Assembly: GCA_903943625.1 (NCBI GenBank)
Contig: CAJAPL010000179.1
Coordinates: forward strand, 1 to 5,491
Direction of reading: 5' to 3'
DNA: 5,491 nucleotides
From: an uncultured bacterium
GTDB lineage: Bacteria > Patescibacteriota > Gracilibacteria > Absconditabacterales > Absconditicoccaceae
This document shows positions 1 to 5,491 of this stretch, in pieces (within the stretch, counting starts at the first letter, position 1; each line of letters starts with the position of its first letter). The notes under the pieces were generated by a model that did no database searches, was not told where the DNA came from, and worked only from the letters and a program-made list of their open reading frames with translations. The translations under genes and the position numbers were made by a program.

Positions 1-1310
1 ATTCAGATTTTTTCAAATCTTTTTTGCTGTATCTGTCGCGCTTGGATTACTTTTTCTTTGATGCTTTCTGAACTTTCGGATGGTATTTTATCAAGTATTT
101 TTTCTATATTTTCACGCGGAATTTCCATTATCATATCTATCCTATCGAGTAGTGGTCAGGATATTTTGCTTTGATATTTTTTGATATCATTTATGTTGCA
201 GATACAATTTTTTTCTGGATCTTTGTAGTAACCGCATTTACAGGGATTCATAGATCCCACAAACATAAAATTTGCTGGATATTGTATAGTACCAGCTACT
301 CTGGAAATATTTATAGTTTTGTCTTCTATAGGTTGACGTAAAACTTCTATTACTTCCCTAGGAAATTCTGTCAGTTCATCAAAAAACAATACTCATTTGT
401 GAGCGAGACTCACTTCTCCCGGAGTAAGATTGGATCATCATCATATTATTGAAATTTTGGAAGCTGTATGATGAACTTGTCTAAATGGTCTTTGAATTAT
501 GAGAGGGGAATCTTTATTTAATTTGCCGACTACTGAATAAATTTGACTAACTTCAAGTATTTCTTCAAATCATAATGGTGGCAATATGCTTTGGAGCGCT
601 TTTGATAACATCGTTTTACCAGATCATGGAGCTCATACCATGATTAGATTGTGTAATCATGCAGCTGCTATTGCAAGAGCTCTTTTGGCAAAAATCTGTC
701 ATTTGATATGCTCAAAATCTACTTCAAAATTATGGCTTCATGAATATAAATTTTCTATACTTTGTGGGCTTGTAATCTTGTTGATATCTTTTCAATTAAT
801 AAAAAATTCCAATATTTCATGGAAGTTTTTTATGGGATAGATTGTGATGTTTGGTATATATTCTAGTTCATAAATGTTTTCTTGCGGGATAAAGAATTGA
901 TTGTATCATTTCTTGATAGAGGATATAACCGATGGCAATAATCAATTTACTCTTTTAACTGATCAGTCCAATCACAACTCTCAAAAAAAAAGCGAATTAT
1001 TTATAATTTCGTAATTATTTACCCTACCATCATAAATCAAAAGCAATATAGCTACTGCCATCGGCAAATCAAAACTTGTTCAGATTTTTTTGATGTCACT
1101 AGGCGCTAGGTTTAAAATAATTTTTCTTTTGGGTAGCTCTACTCAGATACTACGAAATGTTGCCCTAATTCTTTCTTTGGATTCTTTGATTGCTGCGTCT
1201 GGTAATCATATAATTTCTATGCCAGGCAAAGATCTATTGGAATCTGCCTCTACTACTATTTCAAATCATTGTAATCCCAAATTCGTAAATGTCTTGATTT
1301 TCTGAATCAT
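1..1310 (-). CDS. comM: ComM/YifB-family AAA+ ATPase (Mg-chelatase-like), C-terminus cut by window edge
   Basis: Family role: a hexameric AAA+ motor; in naturally competent bacteria ComM drives branch migration during integration of incoming DNA. Seen here, with TGA read as Gly: the N-terminal domain has IIGLPDAAIKESKERIRA and FFGELGLDGSVKRVNGLLP. The hinge DFEHIKGQIFAKRALAIAAA leads into Walker A GAPGSGKT (residues 226-233), then PFRQVHHTAS, IIGGGSNLTPGEVSLAH and Walker B VLFFDE (307-312). A NPCKCGYY...CIC cysteine set follows (C357, C359, C369, C371), then KISGPLLDRID. The start ATG (1310-1308) is the first after an in-frame TAG and matches the family N-terminus. About 436 residues are visible, so roughly 70 are missing compared with a usual length near 500. 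About 22 of 31 glycines are TGA, including three in a row in the GGG motif. The gene is transcribed away from the polyprenyl synthase. No Shine-Dalgarno sequence is visible. Confidence 0.95.
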
Positions 1311-1348
1311 CTATAATATCTAGTATCTAAAATCTTATAATCAATTTT

Positions 1349-1376
1349 GATATAATCTTTTTTTGGGACTTTGCAA
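1349..1376 (-). promoter_or_regulatory. weak promoter candidate for comM
   Basis: On the minus strand TTGCAA (1376-1371) and TATATC (1354-1349) are separated by 16 bases. Each matches the sigma-70 consensus at 4 of 6 positions. This would give a leader of about 30 bases before the comM ATG. The region is so AT-rich that chance matches are expected, so this is only a candidate. Confidence 0.2.
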
Positions 1377-1383
1377 TAGTTTC

Positions 1384-1403
1384 TGTCAAAAATATATTTG
1401 ACA
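1384..1403. repeat. inverted repeat TGTCAAA-N6-TTTGACA in the divergent intergenic region
   Basis: Two perfect 7-base arms (1384-1390 and 1397-1403) flank a 6-base AT centre. The repeat lies between comM and the polyprenyl synthase gene. Each arm contains a consensus TTGACA hexamer, one on each strand. It could be an operator, a paired -35 element or a small hairpin; the sequence alone does not decide. Confidence 0.5.
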
Positions 1404-1427
1404 AGATTCTTATTGATTGAAAAGAAT
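1398..1427 (+). promoter_or_regulatory. candidate promoter for the polyprenyl synthase gene
   Basis: A consensus -35 TTGACA (1398-1403) is followed after 18 bases by AAGAAT (1422-1427), which matches the -10 consensus at 4 of 6 positions. The predicted transcript would start near 1435, upstream of the ATG at 1480 but downstream of the alternative in-frame ATG at 1429. This supports the shorter protein. The -35 is also the right arm of the inverted repeat. Confidence 0.35.
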
Positions 1428-1479
1428 GATGAAATGAATAGACTGCTGGCTGTCTTTGTTTTTATTTGCTTTTTGTGAA

Positions 1480-2523
1480 ATGGATTTAGCTCAGTTTAAG
1501 GTCGCTTTTGATCGCTTGCTTATGGATTATGTTCAACAGAAAATATCTGATTCCAAAAAAATACTAGATAATGATACGTTAAATAAAATACTTGATTATG
1601 TCCAAACCTTTATATTTTCTTGATGAAAAAGAATAAGACCGTACGCTTTGTATCTTACATATAAATGATTGGGATGAAAAAATGAAGATGCAATAATGCG
1701 TTTTGGCATTATATTTGAGTTGTTGCATAGTTTTGCTTTGATACATGATGATATAATAGATAGATCTGAAAAAAGACACAATATACTTACTATGCATCAT
1801 TATATTAACAAACTATTGTGAGAAAAAAATATGCATATAGCCCAATCTCAAGCTCTGTTGGTTGGAGATTTGTTGTTTTCTTGGGTTTATGAGCTTCAAT
1901 ATAAAAATCATGATTTTGATAGTCAACTGCTCCGTGTCTCAAGATGGAATGTGCATAATATGATAGAAGAGGTGATACTTGGAGAAATGATAGATGTCCA
2001 TATGCTTGTATGAGAACAAGTAGATGAAAAACTGATAGATAAAAAAAATCAATATAAAACAGCTTCATATACTTTTACTATACCTATGCTTACTTGAGCT
2101 ATTTTGGCTGATACAAGTGAAAATGTTTTGGATATGGTTAAAGATTTGTGAAATTGCATCGGTATGGCGTTTCAGGTTAGAGATGACTTAAATGATATTC
2201 TCTGAACAGAAGCAGATAAGCGTATTTTCTCTGATGTACAGGAGGGACAACAAACATATTTTACCAATTACGTCTTCCAACATTGATCTGAATCTGATAA
2301 ACAATTACTTAAACAATCATTGGGAAAGACATTAACTGATAGTCAAATTAAGGAACTCCAAAAAATGTTTTATAATAACGGGGCTATCGATTTTGTAAAA
2401 TCACTTATAAAAAAATATGCTGAGCAAGCCCAACATATTCTTGATAAAATATCTTTTGAAGATGAACCTTCTAGATTGGCTTTTGAGTCGTTGGTGAGGA
2501 AAATATGATATTTGGCTGTTTAG
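1480..2523 (+). CDS. trans-polyprenyl diphosphate synthase, probably short-chain (FPP/GGPP type)
   Basis: Family role: condenses isopentenyl diphosphate with allylic diphosphates to build isoprenoid chains for lipid carriers or quinones; cytosolic, Mg-dependent. The 347-aa protein has every landmark: GGKRIRP (residues 48-54, both glycines TGA), first Asp-rich motif HDDIID (D90, D91, D94), second FQVRDDLND (D235, D236, D239), and DVQEGQQT (252-259). Phe85, five residues before the first Asp motif and with no insertion in that motif, resembles archaeal-type geranylgeranyl synthases; long-chain enzymes usually have a small residue there. Odd points: the usual RRG after the first motif reads RHN, and the Lys usual after the late EG is Gln. 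Eleven of 18 glycines are TGA. The stop is TAG. ATG1480 fits the family N-terminus; an in-frame ATG at 1429 would add 17 hydrophobic residues. Its 3' end overlaps the convergent surface-protein gene. Confidence 0.94.
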
Positions 2524-3728
2524 TTAAGGTTTAGTTTCTTAAACTGTTCAACCATTTTCTTGTGTTTTGTAAATCAGTGCCGATAGTGAAGTTTGAGTAT
2601 AAAAGTTATAATAAATAGCGTCCATCATATTACTCAAAAAACTGATATATAACTTTTTTTCTCTATCTTTTCTTGTACTATGGGAGCGGCAGTAGCGTCC
2701 TTTTCTTCTTCGATGTTTTGTAGCTGAGCTGGTATTGGGCATCATAGCTTCTTGAGGATAGCTTTTCATGATTTTTGGTATATTCAATCTTCCTGTAAAT
2801 ATATATTTCAGATCAATGCGCATTCTTTTTGTGTTCAACGAAAACTTGCGTATCATTGTGCTAATTCTCTAAATTTAAATGGATCAAGATAATTTTCTAA
2901 AACTAATCAACTTGAAGTTTTGACCTCAAAGCTTTCGTTTTGGATATTTGCTCATCAGTATTTTTGCTTATCAGATATAGATATAGAGATGGGGATTAGC
3001 TTGTTTACTGGCAATCGTGTGCGAGGATATACAATGAGCTGATCTCAACTCCAAAAAACTCCATTATCATCATAAACGTAATTCTGATTATTTATATGCA
3101 ATTTTAACTGTTTTTTATCTATTCATTTTCAGTCGTCTTTAATCTCAAAAATAAAGCTAGAATCTAGCGCAACTCAATTGGTTTTGTTTAATGGCTTAAC
3201 CATTTCTATTATGGGAGGTACAACATCTGGTTCACATTCTGGAGCTTTTGCAAATGGAGTTGAAAACGATGCGTTTAATGAGATCACTCTTCAATATTTT
3301 GTTGTTAGATAAGACCCTTCTGTAAATTCAAAGGTGTTGCCTGTTATATTTTCATTGCTTTTGTAGTAGAGATTGAATAATGCGACTTTAGTTTCTTTAA
3401 AATCTTCATTACTTATTTTATTAAACAATATTTTATTGTATTCTATGCTATAGTTTGTCGTGCTTGACTGATCAATGGGGACAACACGGATTATTTTGAT
3501 CTTTTTTGTGTCATATTTTAATACCAGGTTTATTGTGCTTATGTTTTCTCATTTGGATTCGATTGCTATATTGGCAACGTGATCACATCATGCATGTAGT
3601 TTATCAGCAGGCAAAAATCTTGCTTCAGGATATGTTGAATTTAAATAAATATTAGCAGCATAAGTTGGGAGGCTAATAGTAAATCACAAAACTAAAATTA
3701 TTTTTAATAAATTTGTGCCTGTTTTCAT
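2520..3728 (-). CDS. secreted, membrane-anchored surface protein with cohesin-like and Ig-like regions
   Basis: This 402-aa protein is continuous only with TGA as Gly (20 of 24 glycines are TGA). It opens with a signal peptide: Lys2 and Lys9, a hydrophobic stretch at 10-20, then a likely cleavage after TYA at 24. Residues about 26-165 have alternating beta-strand character and the pattern of a cohesin-type sandwich (VANIAIES, then NLVLKYDTKKIKIIRVV). Residues about 171-275 resemble bacterial Ig-like repeats (IKDDGKGIDKKQLKLHI, with YPRTRLPVN and ISISISD). A module with Cys303 and Cys330, possibly disulfide-linked, and a charged linker follow. One membrane helix (361-378) comes next, then a basic tail of about 24 residues. 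Predicted topology: outside N-terminus, inside C-terminus. The domain names are my pattern judgement; a role in adhesion or host contact is inference. ATG3728 is chosen because it directly begins the signal peptide. The stop is TAA. Confidence 0.85.
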
Positions 3729-3758
3729 ATCGTTTTATAGTTTTTAAAACATACTATT

Positions 3759-3786
3759 ATTATAATACTAATTATTTTGATATCAA
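3759..3786 (-). promoter_or_regulatory. promoter of the surface-protein gene
   Basis: On the minus strand -35 TTGATA (3786-3781; 5 of 6) and -10 TATAAT (3764-3759; 6 of 6) are 16 bases apart. The predicted start near 3752 gives a leader of about 24 bases to the ATG at 3728. This is the best promoter match in the window. The -35 lies inside a palindrome that could be an operator. No Shine-Dalgarno sequence precedes the start. Confidence 0.55.
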
Positions 3787-3787
3787 A
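3776..3787. repeat. perfect 12-bp palindrome TTTGATATCAAA over the surface-gene -35
   Basis: The palindrome is perfect and covers the -35 hexamer of the surface-protein promoter. A dimeric regulator bound here would block RNA polymerase. No regulator gene is in the window, and one such palindrome in AT-rich DNA can occur by chance. Confidence 0.4.
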
Positions 3788-3815
3788 GTGACATAGATAA
3801 AGGTATAAAAAAGAT

Positions 3816-3844
3816 TTGACAAATTTTCATTGGTAGTTTTAAAT
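3816..3844 (+). promoter_or_regulatory. candidate plus-strand promoter upstream of the 74-aa gene
   Basis: A consensus TTGACA (3816-3821) is followed after 17 bases by TTAAAT (3839-3844; 4 of 6). If used it gives a purine-rich leader of about 130 bases. A second candidate is nearer: TTGTAT (3925-3930; 3 of 6), 16 bases, then AATAAT (3947-3952; 5 of 6). That one would start just upstream of the ATG at 3982. The sequence does not decide between them. Confidence 0.3.
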
Positions 3845-3981
3845 ATTTACTTGTATTGAATATTGATTAATAATGTGAGGTTTGAAGTTGAAAGTGGGGA
3901 GATAAAAGATACAAGATTGAGTAGTTGTATAAAGAATTGATTTTAAAATAATAAATGTTTTTAATTTATAGCTCCAAAACT

Positions 3982-4206
3982 ATGCCTGACAAAAGTAATA
4001 TAAAGAAAATAGAAGATGAAAAAAAGTTAAATATTCAAAAAACTATGGACCATCCTATCAATGAGGCTTTGAAGTGATGAGAACTTAAGGCAGCTATTTT
4101 GTCGCAGGGAGGGAAACAACAAATTGCTCCGTTAAACCAAATTTCTATATCTTTGGATAAGTATGAAAATAAGGTTATAAGAAAAAGAAAAATCAAATCT
4201 CAATAG
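3982..4206 (+). CDS. small hydrophilic protein of unknown function (74 aa)
   Basis: I do not recognise this protein. It runs from ATG3982 to TAG4204 with two consecutive in-frame TGAs (residues 32-33, read as Gly-Gly), so it is invisible under the standard code. It is rich in Lys, Glu, Ile and Gln. The first 20 residues are strongly charged and look helical, the middle has two small GG stretches (LKGGELKAAILSQGGKQQ), and the end is basic (VIRKRKIKSQ). There is no signal peptide, membrane segment, cysteine or tryptophan, so a cytosolic and perhaps nucleic-acid-binding protein is possible but unproven. An in-frame ATG at 3955 would add nine residues (MFLIYSSKT). The gene lies alone between two divergent or convergent neighbours, and its stop is eight bases from the stop of the 170-aa gene. 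It could be a chance open frame. Confidence 0.55.
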
Positions 4207-4214
4207 ATCCTAGT

Positions 4215-4727
4215 TTACATGAATATTTTGTAGATTCATAGTGTGATTATAGTAAGGAGTCGTCAAACTATTTTCGAAAATATCTTAGATGCTTTTGTTT
4301 TGTTAAAATTTCTATAAAAACTAGATCGTTGCTGCTGATCTACTATTGTTTTTCATATCTTGGTTTCGATGTCTTTTATGTTCTTTTCAAAAAGATTCTT
4401 TTCCAGAAAATAATTTTTTGTGTTTGATTGGAAAAGTCATTCCATGAGTGATATATTTATATTTTCTGGGTATTTGCTATTGTATTGTTCCTGTGCAAAC
4501 TTAGCGATTATTTGGTCGCATTCTAAAACAAACTTCTGCTGGTTGTTTTTGTGATGTCTCTTAATCAAGTTATGAAATGATCATAATAATATTATCAATA
4601 CTGCATATATAGCTATCGCAAACAAAAATATCTCTGATCAGTGGCTAGATAATCATATTGTTTTTGATAGTCTCTCTATCAATGATTGGTATACCGTTTG
4701 TGATGTTATTAAGCTATCTCAAGTCAT
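4215..4727 (-). CDS. membrane protein of unknown function downstream of tilS (170 aa)
   Basis: I do not recognise the family. The 170-aa protein has eight glycines and all eight are TGA. A polar N-terminal segment of about 30 residues leads into one clear membrane helix (33-51, FLFAIAIYAVLIILLG), then the basic stretch HNLIKRHHKNNQQK, which suggests the C-terminal part is cytoplasmic. Residues 64-150 are charged and predicted largely helical (LECDQIIAKFAQEQY, LEKNLFEKNIKDIETKIG), possibly coiled coil. The end (156-170, RLLTIITLGIYKIFM) is hydrophobic again and could be a second membrane or amphipathic helix. ATG4727 is the only start after an in-frame TAA at 4766-4764. It lies four bases after the tilS stop with no Shine-Dalgarno sequence, so co-transcription and translational coupling with tilS are likely. 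The stop is TAA. Confidence 0.85.
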
Positions 4728-4731
4728 ATTT

Positions 4732-5491
4732 TTATAAGATATAAATGTCTTTGAAACTGTGGATTATTTTTCAATCTTTTTCGACGACTGGTATAAAGTT
4801 CCTCCAAAAAACTGGTATCTTTTGGTTGCTACAATATTGGTTTCGTGTTTTCCCCTTGAATTTGTCTCATACTTTGGGGAACCTGAGCACAGATCAAAGC
4901 ATATTCTTTTTATCTATTGTTATATTTAATTTTCATAACTGGATGTTTCACAGTGTATTTATAGGGACTTTTTTATCAATAGTTTTTATCCAAAAATTTT
5001 GTGGTGCATTGATAATGTAGATCTTGCCATGAGAAATCCGAAAATAAGTCTGATTGAAATATTTAAATCAGTCCTGTTTGTTTACTATAAAATCACTTAA
5101 TTCTTTTATAAAACTGCTATTTATGTTTTTATAAATTCATAGTTTTTTTATGATGTTTAATAATTGTCATTGTGTTACTAATTTTTTGAATATGTCTAAT
5201 TCATATCAAAATCTGTGGTTTCGATATGGGGATTTTATGGTGTCTTTTAATAAGTTATTATCTGGCTCTTCTTGATCTAGTTGTTTATAAATTGTTGACA
5301 TGCTTTCTATAAATGAATTGGATAATTTATCCTTTTTGTTTGATAATTTATAAATTTGTGGTAATAGTTTTATTCTTAAGAAATTTCTTAAACTTGTTTT
5401 GGGGTTATCGTTTGTCTCATCGTGTATGTACGGTATTTTATATTTTTTGCATAGTTGGGTTATCTCATTTTTTGTTAAGTCTATTAACGGC
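4732..5491 (-). CDS. tilS: tRNA(Ile)-lysidine synthetase TilS, N-terminus cut by window edge
   Basis: Family role: uses ATP and lysine to convert C34 of tRNA-Ile(CAU) to lysidine, so the tRNA reads AUA instead of AUG; essential and cytosolic. The visible 252 residues begin at PLIDLTKNEITQLCKKYKIP, then HDETNDNPKTSLRNFLRIKL with the conserved D-TN-RN-R pattern of the ATPase domain's end. A helical linker follows. The C-terminal domain has VLRFPKVGDKFKGKTRNQ, then IPVFWRNFIPVVEKDGKIIH, which matches the usual GD-F, K-P-R and P arrangement. The N-terminal half with the SGGxDS ATP-binding loop lies beyond the right edge. Nine of 11 glycines are TGA; the stop is TAA at 4734-4732. AUA codons are very common in every gene here, so this enzyme is in heavy demand. 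The 170-aa membrane protein follows in the same direction. Confidence 0.93.

Follow-up and report, generated by a model that had tools for sequence, protein, structure and literature searches.

We analysed a 5,491-nt stretch of DNA (the window), one of the 216 contigs of a 1.01-Mb assembly that is 88% complete, and predict with high confidence, from a comparison of codons and tRNAs, that this uncultured Absconditabacterales bacterium uses a genetic code with two changes, in which UGA is read as glycine and both CGA and CGG as tryptophan. The initial annotation had described the window as genetic code 25, with TGA as glycine throughout; the glycine part was supported by alignments and family genes, while the name of the table did not hold, since CGA and CGG are read as tryptophan. 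This is a known code, predicted in 2021 (PMC8629427) and misnamed plain table 25, rather than a new one, and what is added here is stronger codon-level evidence. Sequence relatives of the window's ComM place the lineage in the Absconditabacterales, i.e. the Absconditabacteria or SR1 group: among the 120 nearest public proteins, the closest with a name come from Candidatus Absconditicoccaceae (93%), and records of Absconditabacterales and SR1 come next.

Under table 25 the window holds six genes, encoding ComM, a polyprenyl synthase, proteins of 402, 83 and 170 amino acids, and TilS, and the 72 in-frame TGA codons previously counted over them were confirmed exactly (22, 11, 20, 2, 8 and 9 in that order), the frames being open only if TGA is a sense codon. 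The corresponding numbers of GGN codons were 9, 8, 4, 2, 0 and 2, with a total of 25. TGA is thus preferred in five of the six genes, with a tie in the 83-residue one, and all eight glycines of the 170-residue protein are TGA, as the earlier wording had it. None of the five visible terminators is TGA, also as described before; three are TAA and two TAG. The 1690 codons of the six genes include no TAA or TAG; in the remaining five frames of this DNA, 273 TAA and 141 TAG were counted among 8426 codons (4.9%). The open frames are therefore not due to chance, the probability of six stop-free frames being about 10^-37 when codons are treated as independent. Counting TGA raised the glycine share of residues from 1.5% to 5.7%. 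TGA was found, as claimed, at all three glycines of the ComM motif GGGSNL and at that of KISGPLLDR, at both glycines of SGGKRIRP in the polyprenyl synthase and at that of VGDKF in TilS. In the Walker A motif (VGAPGSGKT), TGA encodes two of three glycines, that of SGK being a GGN codon. When the TGAs of the polyprenyl synthase were masked as X, the two X preceding KRIRP faced Gly-Gly in the three solved structures with alignments shown.

Beyond the window, TGA, CGA and CGG were masked as X in the alignments, and a single set of long, non-overlapping longest open reading frames (ORFs) in sense frames was used. It replaced earlier counts mixing sense and antisense open frames, which were excluded as family evidence; in those mixed counts, nearly all arginine matches of the bacterium's own family (f1, 49 genomes) outside ComM residue 425 came from the antisense strand of ComM. 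For comparison with the standard code, we sampled 400 kb from each of two genomes of this class that use it (G046 and G103), and the overlap between two stretches of the source genome (L011 and L019, about 2.9 kb) was counted once. TGA codons of the source genome faced glycine in 168 of 282 cases and tryptophan in none, and those of G118, a genome of the same genus, faced glycine in 1523 of 2493 and tryptophan in 5. As an unmasked control, AGA faced arginine in 84 of 177 cases in the source genome (tryptophan in none) and in 796 of 1427 in G118 (tryptophan in one). In ComM of 30 genomes of the family, 30 columns carried at least five TGAs, and 482 of the 570 other codons in these columns were glycine codons. 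That the TGAs are instead frameshifts, marks of pseudogenes, selenocysteine codons or tryptophan codons as in code 4 might be suggested by the 'SeC' label that ARAGORN gives to the UCA tRNA, and by public ComM records, which mix glycine and tryptophan at TGA sites as if some had been translated with code 4 and others with code 25. However, TGA faces glycine and not tryptophan, the tRNA(UCA) has a glycine-type acceptor end, and all six window genes stand in identical order in G118, as judged from the positions of the orthologs, leaving this explanation with next to no probability.

Glycine at TGA, the feature shared with table 25, agrees with the release factors found. The source genome contains one PCRF-domain gene, with 12 TGAs inside the domain, whose sequence is of the release factor 1 (RF1) type (PETESQGRVHTS) by a motif that we take to be diagnostic. 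The absence of release factor 2 (RF2, prfB) anticipated by the initial annotation was upheld, in that this single PCRF match was the only one in the 88%-complete assembly and no RF2 match was found. Exactly one PCRF match was present in 46 of the 49 family genomes and none in three (counts that do not distinguish RF1 from RF2). Hand counts over 288 genomes of the class gave one match in 98, two in 2 and none in 8 of the 108 genomes belonging to the four families with UGA as glycine (f1, f14, f22 and f24). The other 180 comprised 156 genomes with at least two matches, 20 with one and 4 without any. The two genomes of the four families with two matches, G218 (f22) and G255 (f14, 2.7 Mb in about 500 contigs), may be contaminated. 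A tRNA with anticodon UCA was found in G118, with ends (G1:C72, C2, G3 and U73) that are glycine-type by the rule given in PMC8629427. DNA matches to it were present in 43 of the 49 family genomes, including both genomes of the same genus, and in all 26 with completeness of 90% or more and contamination of 5% or less; the anticodon was UCA in 20 of 20 family loci scanned. With only RF1 found, UGA would not act as a stop, and the glycine-type tRNA(UCA) seen in the family would read it.

Codon exchange with relatives indicates that CGA and CGG are both read as tryptophan in the source genome, tryptophan insertion being predicted from sequence. Comparison with an 800-kb sample of G118 comprised 76 ORF pairs and 21,847 codons, after six pairs below 45% identity had been dropped. 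The 107 CGA codons of the source genome faced CGA 68 times, TGG 18 times and CGG three times, and its 28 CGG codons faced CGA 14 times and TGG nine times. Together, 112 of these 135 codons faced CGA, CGG or TGG (TGG in 27), and not one faced an arginine codon (AGA, AGG, CGT or CGC). In turn, TGG (n = 90) stood opposite TGG in 41 cases, CGA in 33 and an arginine codon in one, while AGA (n = 451), the control, faced arginine codons 323 times. Against the standard-code genomes, CGA of G118 (n = 174) faced tryptophan 62 times and arginine 4 times, close to what was found for its TGG (n = 197; 66 and 4). For the source genome the corresponding numbers were 7 and 1 for CGA (n = 24), 2 and 0 for CGG (n = 4), and 4 and 0 for TGG (n = 19), and its AGG, CGT and CGC faced arginine in 30 of 54, 8 of 15 and 5 of 9 cases, respectively.

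These exchanges bear on plain NCBI table 25, in which only TGA is changed and CGA and CGG still encode arginine. This table was applied to the group in a 2023 study (PMC10746230), UGA alone is named in the available portion of a genome paper from 2021 (PMC8080830), and the outgroup residue at the CGA of the window's ComM is mostly arginine. However, within the genus CGA and CGG of the source genome face TGG in 27 of 135 cases and arginine codons in none, and the tryptophan columns of ValS, the 30 of 30 family genomes without arginine codons at ComM residue 425 and the acceptor ends of the tRNAs likewise speak against it. The standard meaning of all sense codons other than TGA, with CGA and CGG as arginine, was thus contradicted by the exchange data, ComM and ValS, and we consider plain table 25 highly unlikely. 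CGA and CGG might also be read ambiguously as arginine and tryptophan, with the reassignment still in progress, as outgroup arginine and the family's CGA, CGG and TGG share the column of ComM residue 425, and a few CGA codons face arginine in outgroups (the 4 of 174 in G118 and 1 of 24 in the source genome). Yet TGG of G118 faces arginine about as often, no arginine codon stands opposite CGA or CGG of the source genome in G118, and CGA plus CGG about match or exceed TGG in number, a usage that ambiguity would make costly. Ambiguous reading is, in our estimate, likewise highly unlikely.

Reading CGA and CGG as tryptophan affects eight sites in the window, all on the reverse strand, where table 25 would likely give eight wrong residues. 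The CGA at ComM residue 425 (36..38) is predicted to be tryptophan. This column was read in 30 of the 43 family genomes with a match and contained CGA in 15, TGG in 11 and CGG in four, with no AGA, AGG, CGT or CGC in any of the 30. The 120 nearest public proteins have arginine (65) or tryptophan (55) there and nothing else, a mixture that has the look of a tryptophan site partly translated with the wrong table. Our initial guess had been arginine, which we presumed from the usual ARxxQ motif; it was dropped once the codons of the 30 relatives had been read. The other seven sites are likewise predicted to be tryptophan: CGA at residue 238 (3015..3017; CGA in one relative and TGG in another) and CGG at residue 383 (2580..2582; CGA at 3 of 3 loci, two of them from G118) of the 402-residue protein, CGA at residues 134 (4326..4328; CGA in 2 of 2 relatives) and 156 (4260..4262; CGA in one and CGG in one) of the 170-residue protein, and, in the TilS fragment, CGA at residue 90 (5221..5223; CGA in G118), CGG at residue 151 (5038..5040) and CGA at residue 216 (4843..4845; CGA in one relative and CGG in one). 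G118 has TTT (Phe) opposite TilS residue 151, so that this site adds no support. No arginine codon was seen at these seven sites in the one to three relatives compared at each.

Since the outgroup residue at ComM 425 is mostly arginine, the site is a candidate fossil of an arginine position carried across the reassignment. G061, a standard-code genome, has TGG at this position, showing that tryptophan is tolerated there without a code change. A genome-wide arginine-to-tryptophan fossil was also considered, on the logic that CGA and CGG still busy as arginine codons at the time of the switch would have left too many tryptophans of the family at outgroup arginine sites. Tryptophan occupied 9 of 2554 such sites in G118 and 1 of 324 in the source genome, compared with 2 of 1233 in a control comparison of G046 to G103 (Fisher P = 0.52 for G118 against the control). 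With no excess proven, the idea was kept for ComM 425 only, and the result fits codon capture, in which arginine had largely left CGA and CGG first, with ComM 425 as the one candidate exception found.

Additional evidence came from ValS, aligned from 28 of the 30 genomes asked for (nine of the family and 19 others). In the 16 columns with at least 70% tryptophan outside the family, the nine family genomes had TGG 59 times, CGA 25 times, CGG three times and other codons 57 times, whereas no CGA or CGG stood there in the 19 other genomes, which had 277 TGG. Over all conserved ValS columns, 25 of 48 CGA codons of the family stood on tryptophan and none on arginine. In the other three families CGA resembles an arginine codon: in ValS it stood on arginine in 6 of 7 cases in f14, 16 of 21 in f22 and 3 of 5 in f24, and in conserved ComM columns, where the rest was mostly lysine, in 7 of 11, 36 of 50 and 6 of 7, respectively. 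The TGA change is thus common to the four families, and the change of CGA and CGG is limited in both genes to the family of the source genome. CGG is rare in f14, with one codon in the conserved ComM columns and none in those of ValS; in a mixed set that includes antisense frames, it made up 6 of 18,482 codons, three of them facing arginine and two tryptophan. For Gracilibacteria, published predictions differ, with CGG as tryptophan in some and as arginine in others (PMC8629427).

In the source genome, tRNA(CCG) and tRNA(UCG) were each found on two contigs, and each may be one gene seen twice, because the sequence common to the two contigs is limited to about 105 bases around it. Across the seven CCG and UCG tRNAs from this genome, G118, G071 and G042, G73 was present in all and A1:U72 in five, that is, tRNA(CCG) and tRNA(UCG) carry tryptophan identity elements. 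In comparison, all six arginine tRNAs have A73 and five have G1:C72, and their combination of a GGATA D-loop with A73 occurs in none of the seven. Averaged over six tRNAs of each kind, the tRNA(CCG) of the source genome was 61% identical to tRNA-Trp and 51% to tRNA-Arg, and its best matches outside the family were tRNA-Trp(CCA) of outgroups (68-71%). A DNA search with it over 24 genomes matched nine, the four best being three outgroup tRNA-Trp and one tRNA(CCG) of f14. Such similarities suggest that the CCG and UCG tRNAs descend from tRNA-Trp through a change of anticodon from CCA to CCG. The gene for tryptophanyl-tRNA synthetase (TrpRS, trpS) had one match in 13 of 14 family genomes and two in G144. 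Duplication of TrpRS as the enabling step was accordingly rejected, and the product of a single gene would need to tolerate the new anticodons. By eye, the tRNA(UCG) of the source genome (loci L021 and L022; contigs C68 and C177) shows an apparent A27-C43 mismatch, leaving a 4-bp anticodon stem. Stems of this length have been proposed to widen wobble (PMC13092985), and wider wobble by tRNA(UCG) would be risky because CGT and CGC encode arginine here.

An odd tRNA(CCG) was also observed in f14, where UGA is glycine and CGA arginine, with matches in 34 of 48 genomes. Among the loci examined (L320-L349, at about 1494-1577), the CCG tRNA was in place in 27 of 30. These 27 share the A1:U72 and G73 of tRNA-Trp and have a D-loop without GG, and in 24 the T-loop read TGCAATT in place of TTCAATT. 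With CGG rare in f14 genes, this tRNA may represent a half-way stage of CGG capture. One f14 genome, G178, has two TrpRS-like genes above the family cut-off in addition to the odd tRNA(CCG).

Several observations weigh against the two-change code. The tRNA-Gly(UCA) for which the initial annotation proposed a search was not found in the 88%-complete source assembly. Its absence is likely an assembly gap, because the Ala, Tyr, Arg(UCU), Leu(UAA) and Glu(CUC) tRNAs, which lie no more than about 2 kb from tRNA(UCA) in G118, are missing from the source assembly too. The tRNA(UCG) of the source genome has G1:C72 instead of A1:U72, and outgroup tRNA-Trp, not the tRNA-Trp(CCA) of its own family, is closest to its tRNA(CCG), which leaves the tRNA-Trp origin suggestive only. 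The evidence on CGG of the source genome from outgroups is thin, comprising the four codons given above, and ValS had no match at the threshold in this genome, nor in G039. Finally, when the conserved columns of ComM are classified by outgroup consensus, the CGA (15 of 15), CGG (4 of 4) and TGG (11 of 11) codons of the family all stand on one arginine column, so ComM alone would mislead by suggesting that CGA is arginine.

The kept ORFs of the source genome contained 178 CGA, 61 CGG and 224 TGG codons (46.8, 16.1 and 59.0 per 10,000), those with a G118 ortholog 109, 31 and 98 (46.4, 13.2 and 41.7 per 10,000), and those with an outgroup match 26, 5 and 22. In all three sets, which cover the sampled part of the genome, CGA and CGG together exceeded TGG. 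G118 was near parity, with 50.2 CGA, 5.5 CGG and 53.5 TGG per 10,000 in its kept ORFs and 225, 11 and 254 codons in the ORFs with an outgroup match. Published rates for Absconditabacteria are below 37 per 10,000 for CGA in all species and, a single species excepted, below 7 for CGG, and one species comes close to parity with UGG (PMC8629427); these rates were counted over Pfam domains and ours over ORFs, so the two differ in method. As to the order of events, a copy of tRNA-Trp would have changed its anticodon from CCA to CCG once CGA and CGG were almost free of arginine. Tryptophan would then be brought to CGG and CGA by the CCG and UCG tRNAs with their Trp-type ends (G73 and mostly A1:U72), if these are charged accordingly, with arginine written as AGA, AGG, CGT and CGC. 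A fuller scenario, which we put forward as a rather doubtful possibility, is that in this genus CGA and CGG reached or overtook UGG as tryptophan codons, captured through tRNA-Trp genes with mutated anticodons after UGA had become glycine, that the second change was perhaps favoured by a threat from tRNA-Gly(UCA) to misread UGG, and that ComM 425 is a protein fossil of an arginine site that persisted through the switch.

The code found here resembles NCBI table 25 of SR1 and Gracilibacteria in reading TGA as glycine, in its TAA and TAG stops, in that RF2 was not found and in the tRNA-Gly(UCA) of the family, but CGA and CGG remain arginine there and are tryptophan here. It agrees with the Absconditabacteria code predicted with Codetta by Shulgina and Eddy in 2021 (PMC8629427; six species in their table) in the reading of UGA as glycine and of both CGA and CGG as tryptophan, in having consistent tRNAs and in belonging to the same group, the difference lying in the CGA and CGG rates given above, under different counting. 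Anaerococcus and the RFN20 Bacilli, with CGG as tryptophan, likewise turned an arginine codon into a tryptophan codon with a CCG tRNA, but only CGG changed and there is no UCG tRNA (PMC8629427), whereas here both CGA and CGG changed and a UCG tRNA is present. Table 4 shares the use of UGA as a sense codon, which is tryptophan there and glycine here. The class with UGA as glycine has been treated for another question (PMC13092985), and a literature search, largely without coverage of subscription journals, found no later paper devoted to the change of CGA and CGG. New here are the excess of CGA plus CGG over TGG in the sampled part of the source genome, the limitation of this change to one of the four UGA-glycine families in two genes, and the resemblance of the CGA/CGG tRNAs to derivatives of tRNA-Trp; a genome-wide scar of arginine-to-tryptophan replacement was not proven. 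Annotation of the group continues to rely on table 25 (PMC10746230 is one example), which would place arginine at every tryptophan encoded by CGA or CGG. Judged from ComM and ValS, two nested code changes can be followed in the class, with three families carrying only the UGA change and one that of CGA and CGG as well; outgroups exist for either step, so that how codon capture proceeds, and in which order, can be tested directly.

The genes of the window were assigned as follows. A comM gene of the YifB-type AAA ATPase class (3..1310, reverse strand; TIGR00368, 467.6 bits against a cut-off of 362.4; Pfam Mg_chelatase and ChlI) has its 3' end and stop outside the window and contains 22 TGAs predicted as glycine and the one CGA predicted as tryptophan. 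The polyprenyl synthase gene (1480..2523, forward strand; PF00348, E = 3.4e-43) has 11 glycine TGAs and ends in TAG. An 83-residue protein with no family assigned (3955..4206, forward strand), 60% identical to its G118 ortholog, has two and ends in TAG. On the reverse strand, the open frame for a 170-residue protein with no family assigned (4215..4727), 42% identical to its G118 ortholog, has eight and ends in TAA. The C-terminal part of tilS (4732..5490, reverse strand), a fragment with PF01171 above its cut-off and TIGR02432 below it, has nine glycine TGAs and a TAA stop, its 5' end and start lying outside the window. The 402-residue protein (2520..3728, reverse strand), an open frame with 20 glycine TGAs and a TAA stop, had no sequence match in Pfam, NCBIfam or PDB, and a cohesin-like reading of it, which was an impression only, was unsupported by these searches and set aside. 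It is 62% identical to its G118 ortholog and, by eye, has a signal-like N-terminus and a hydrophobic stretch towards the C-terminus.

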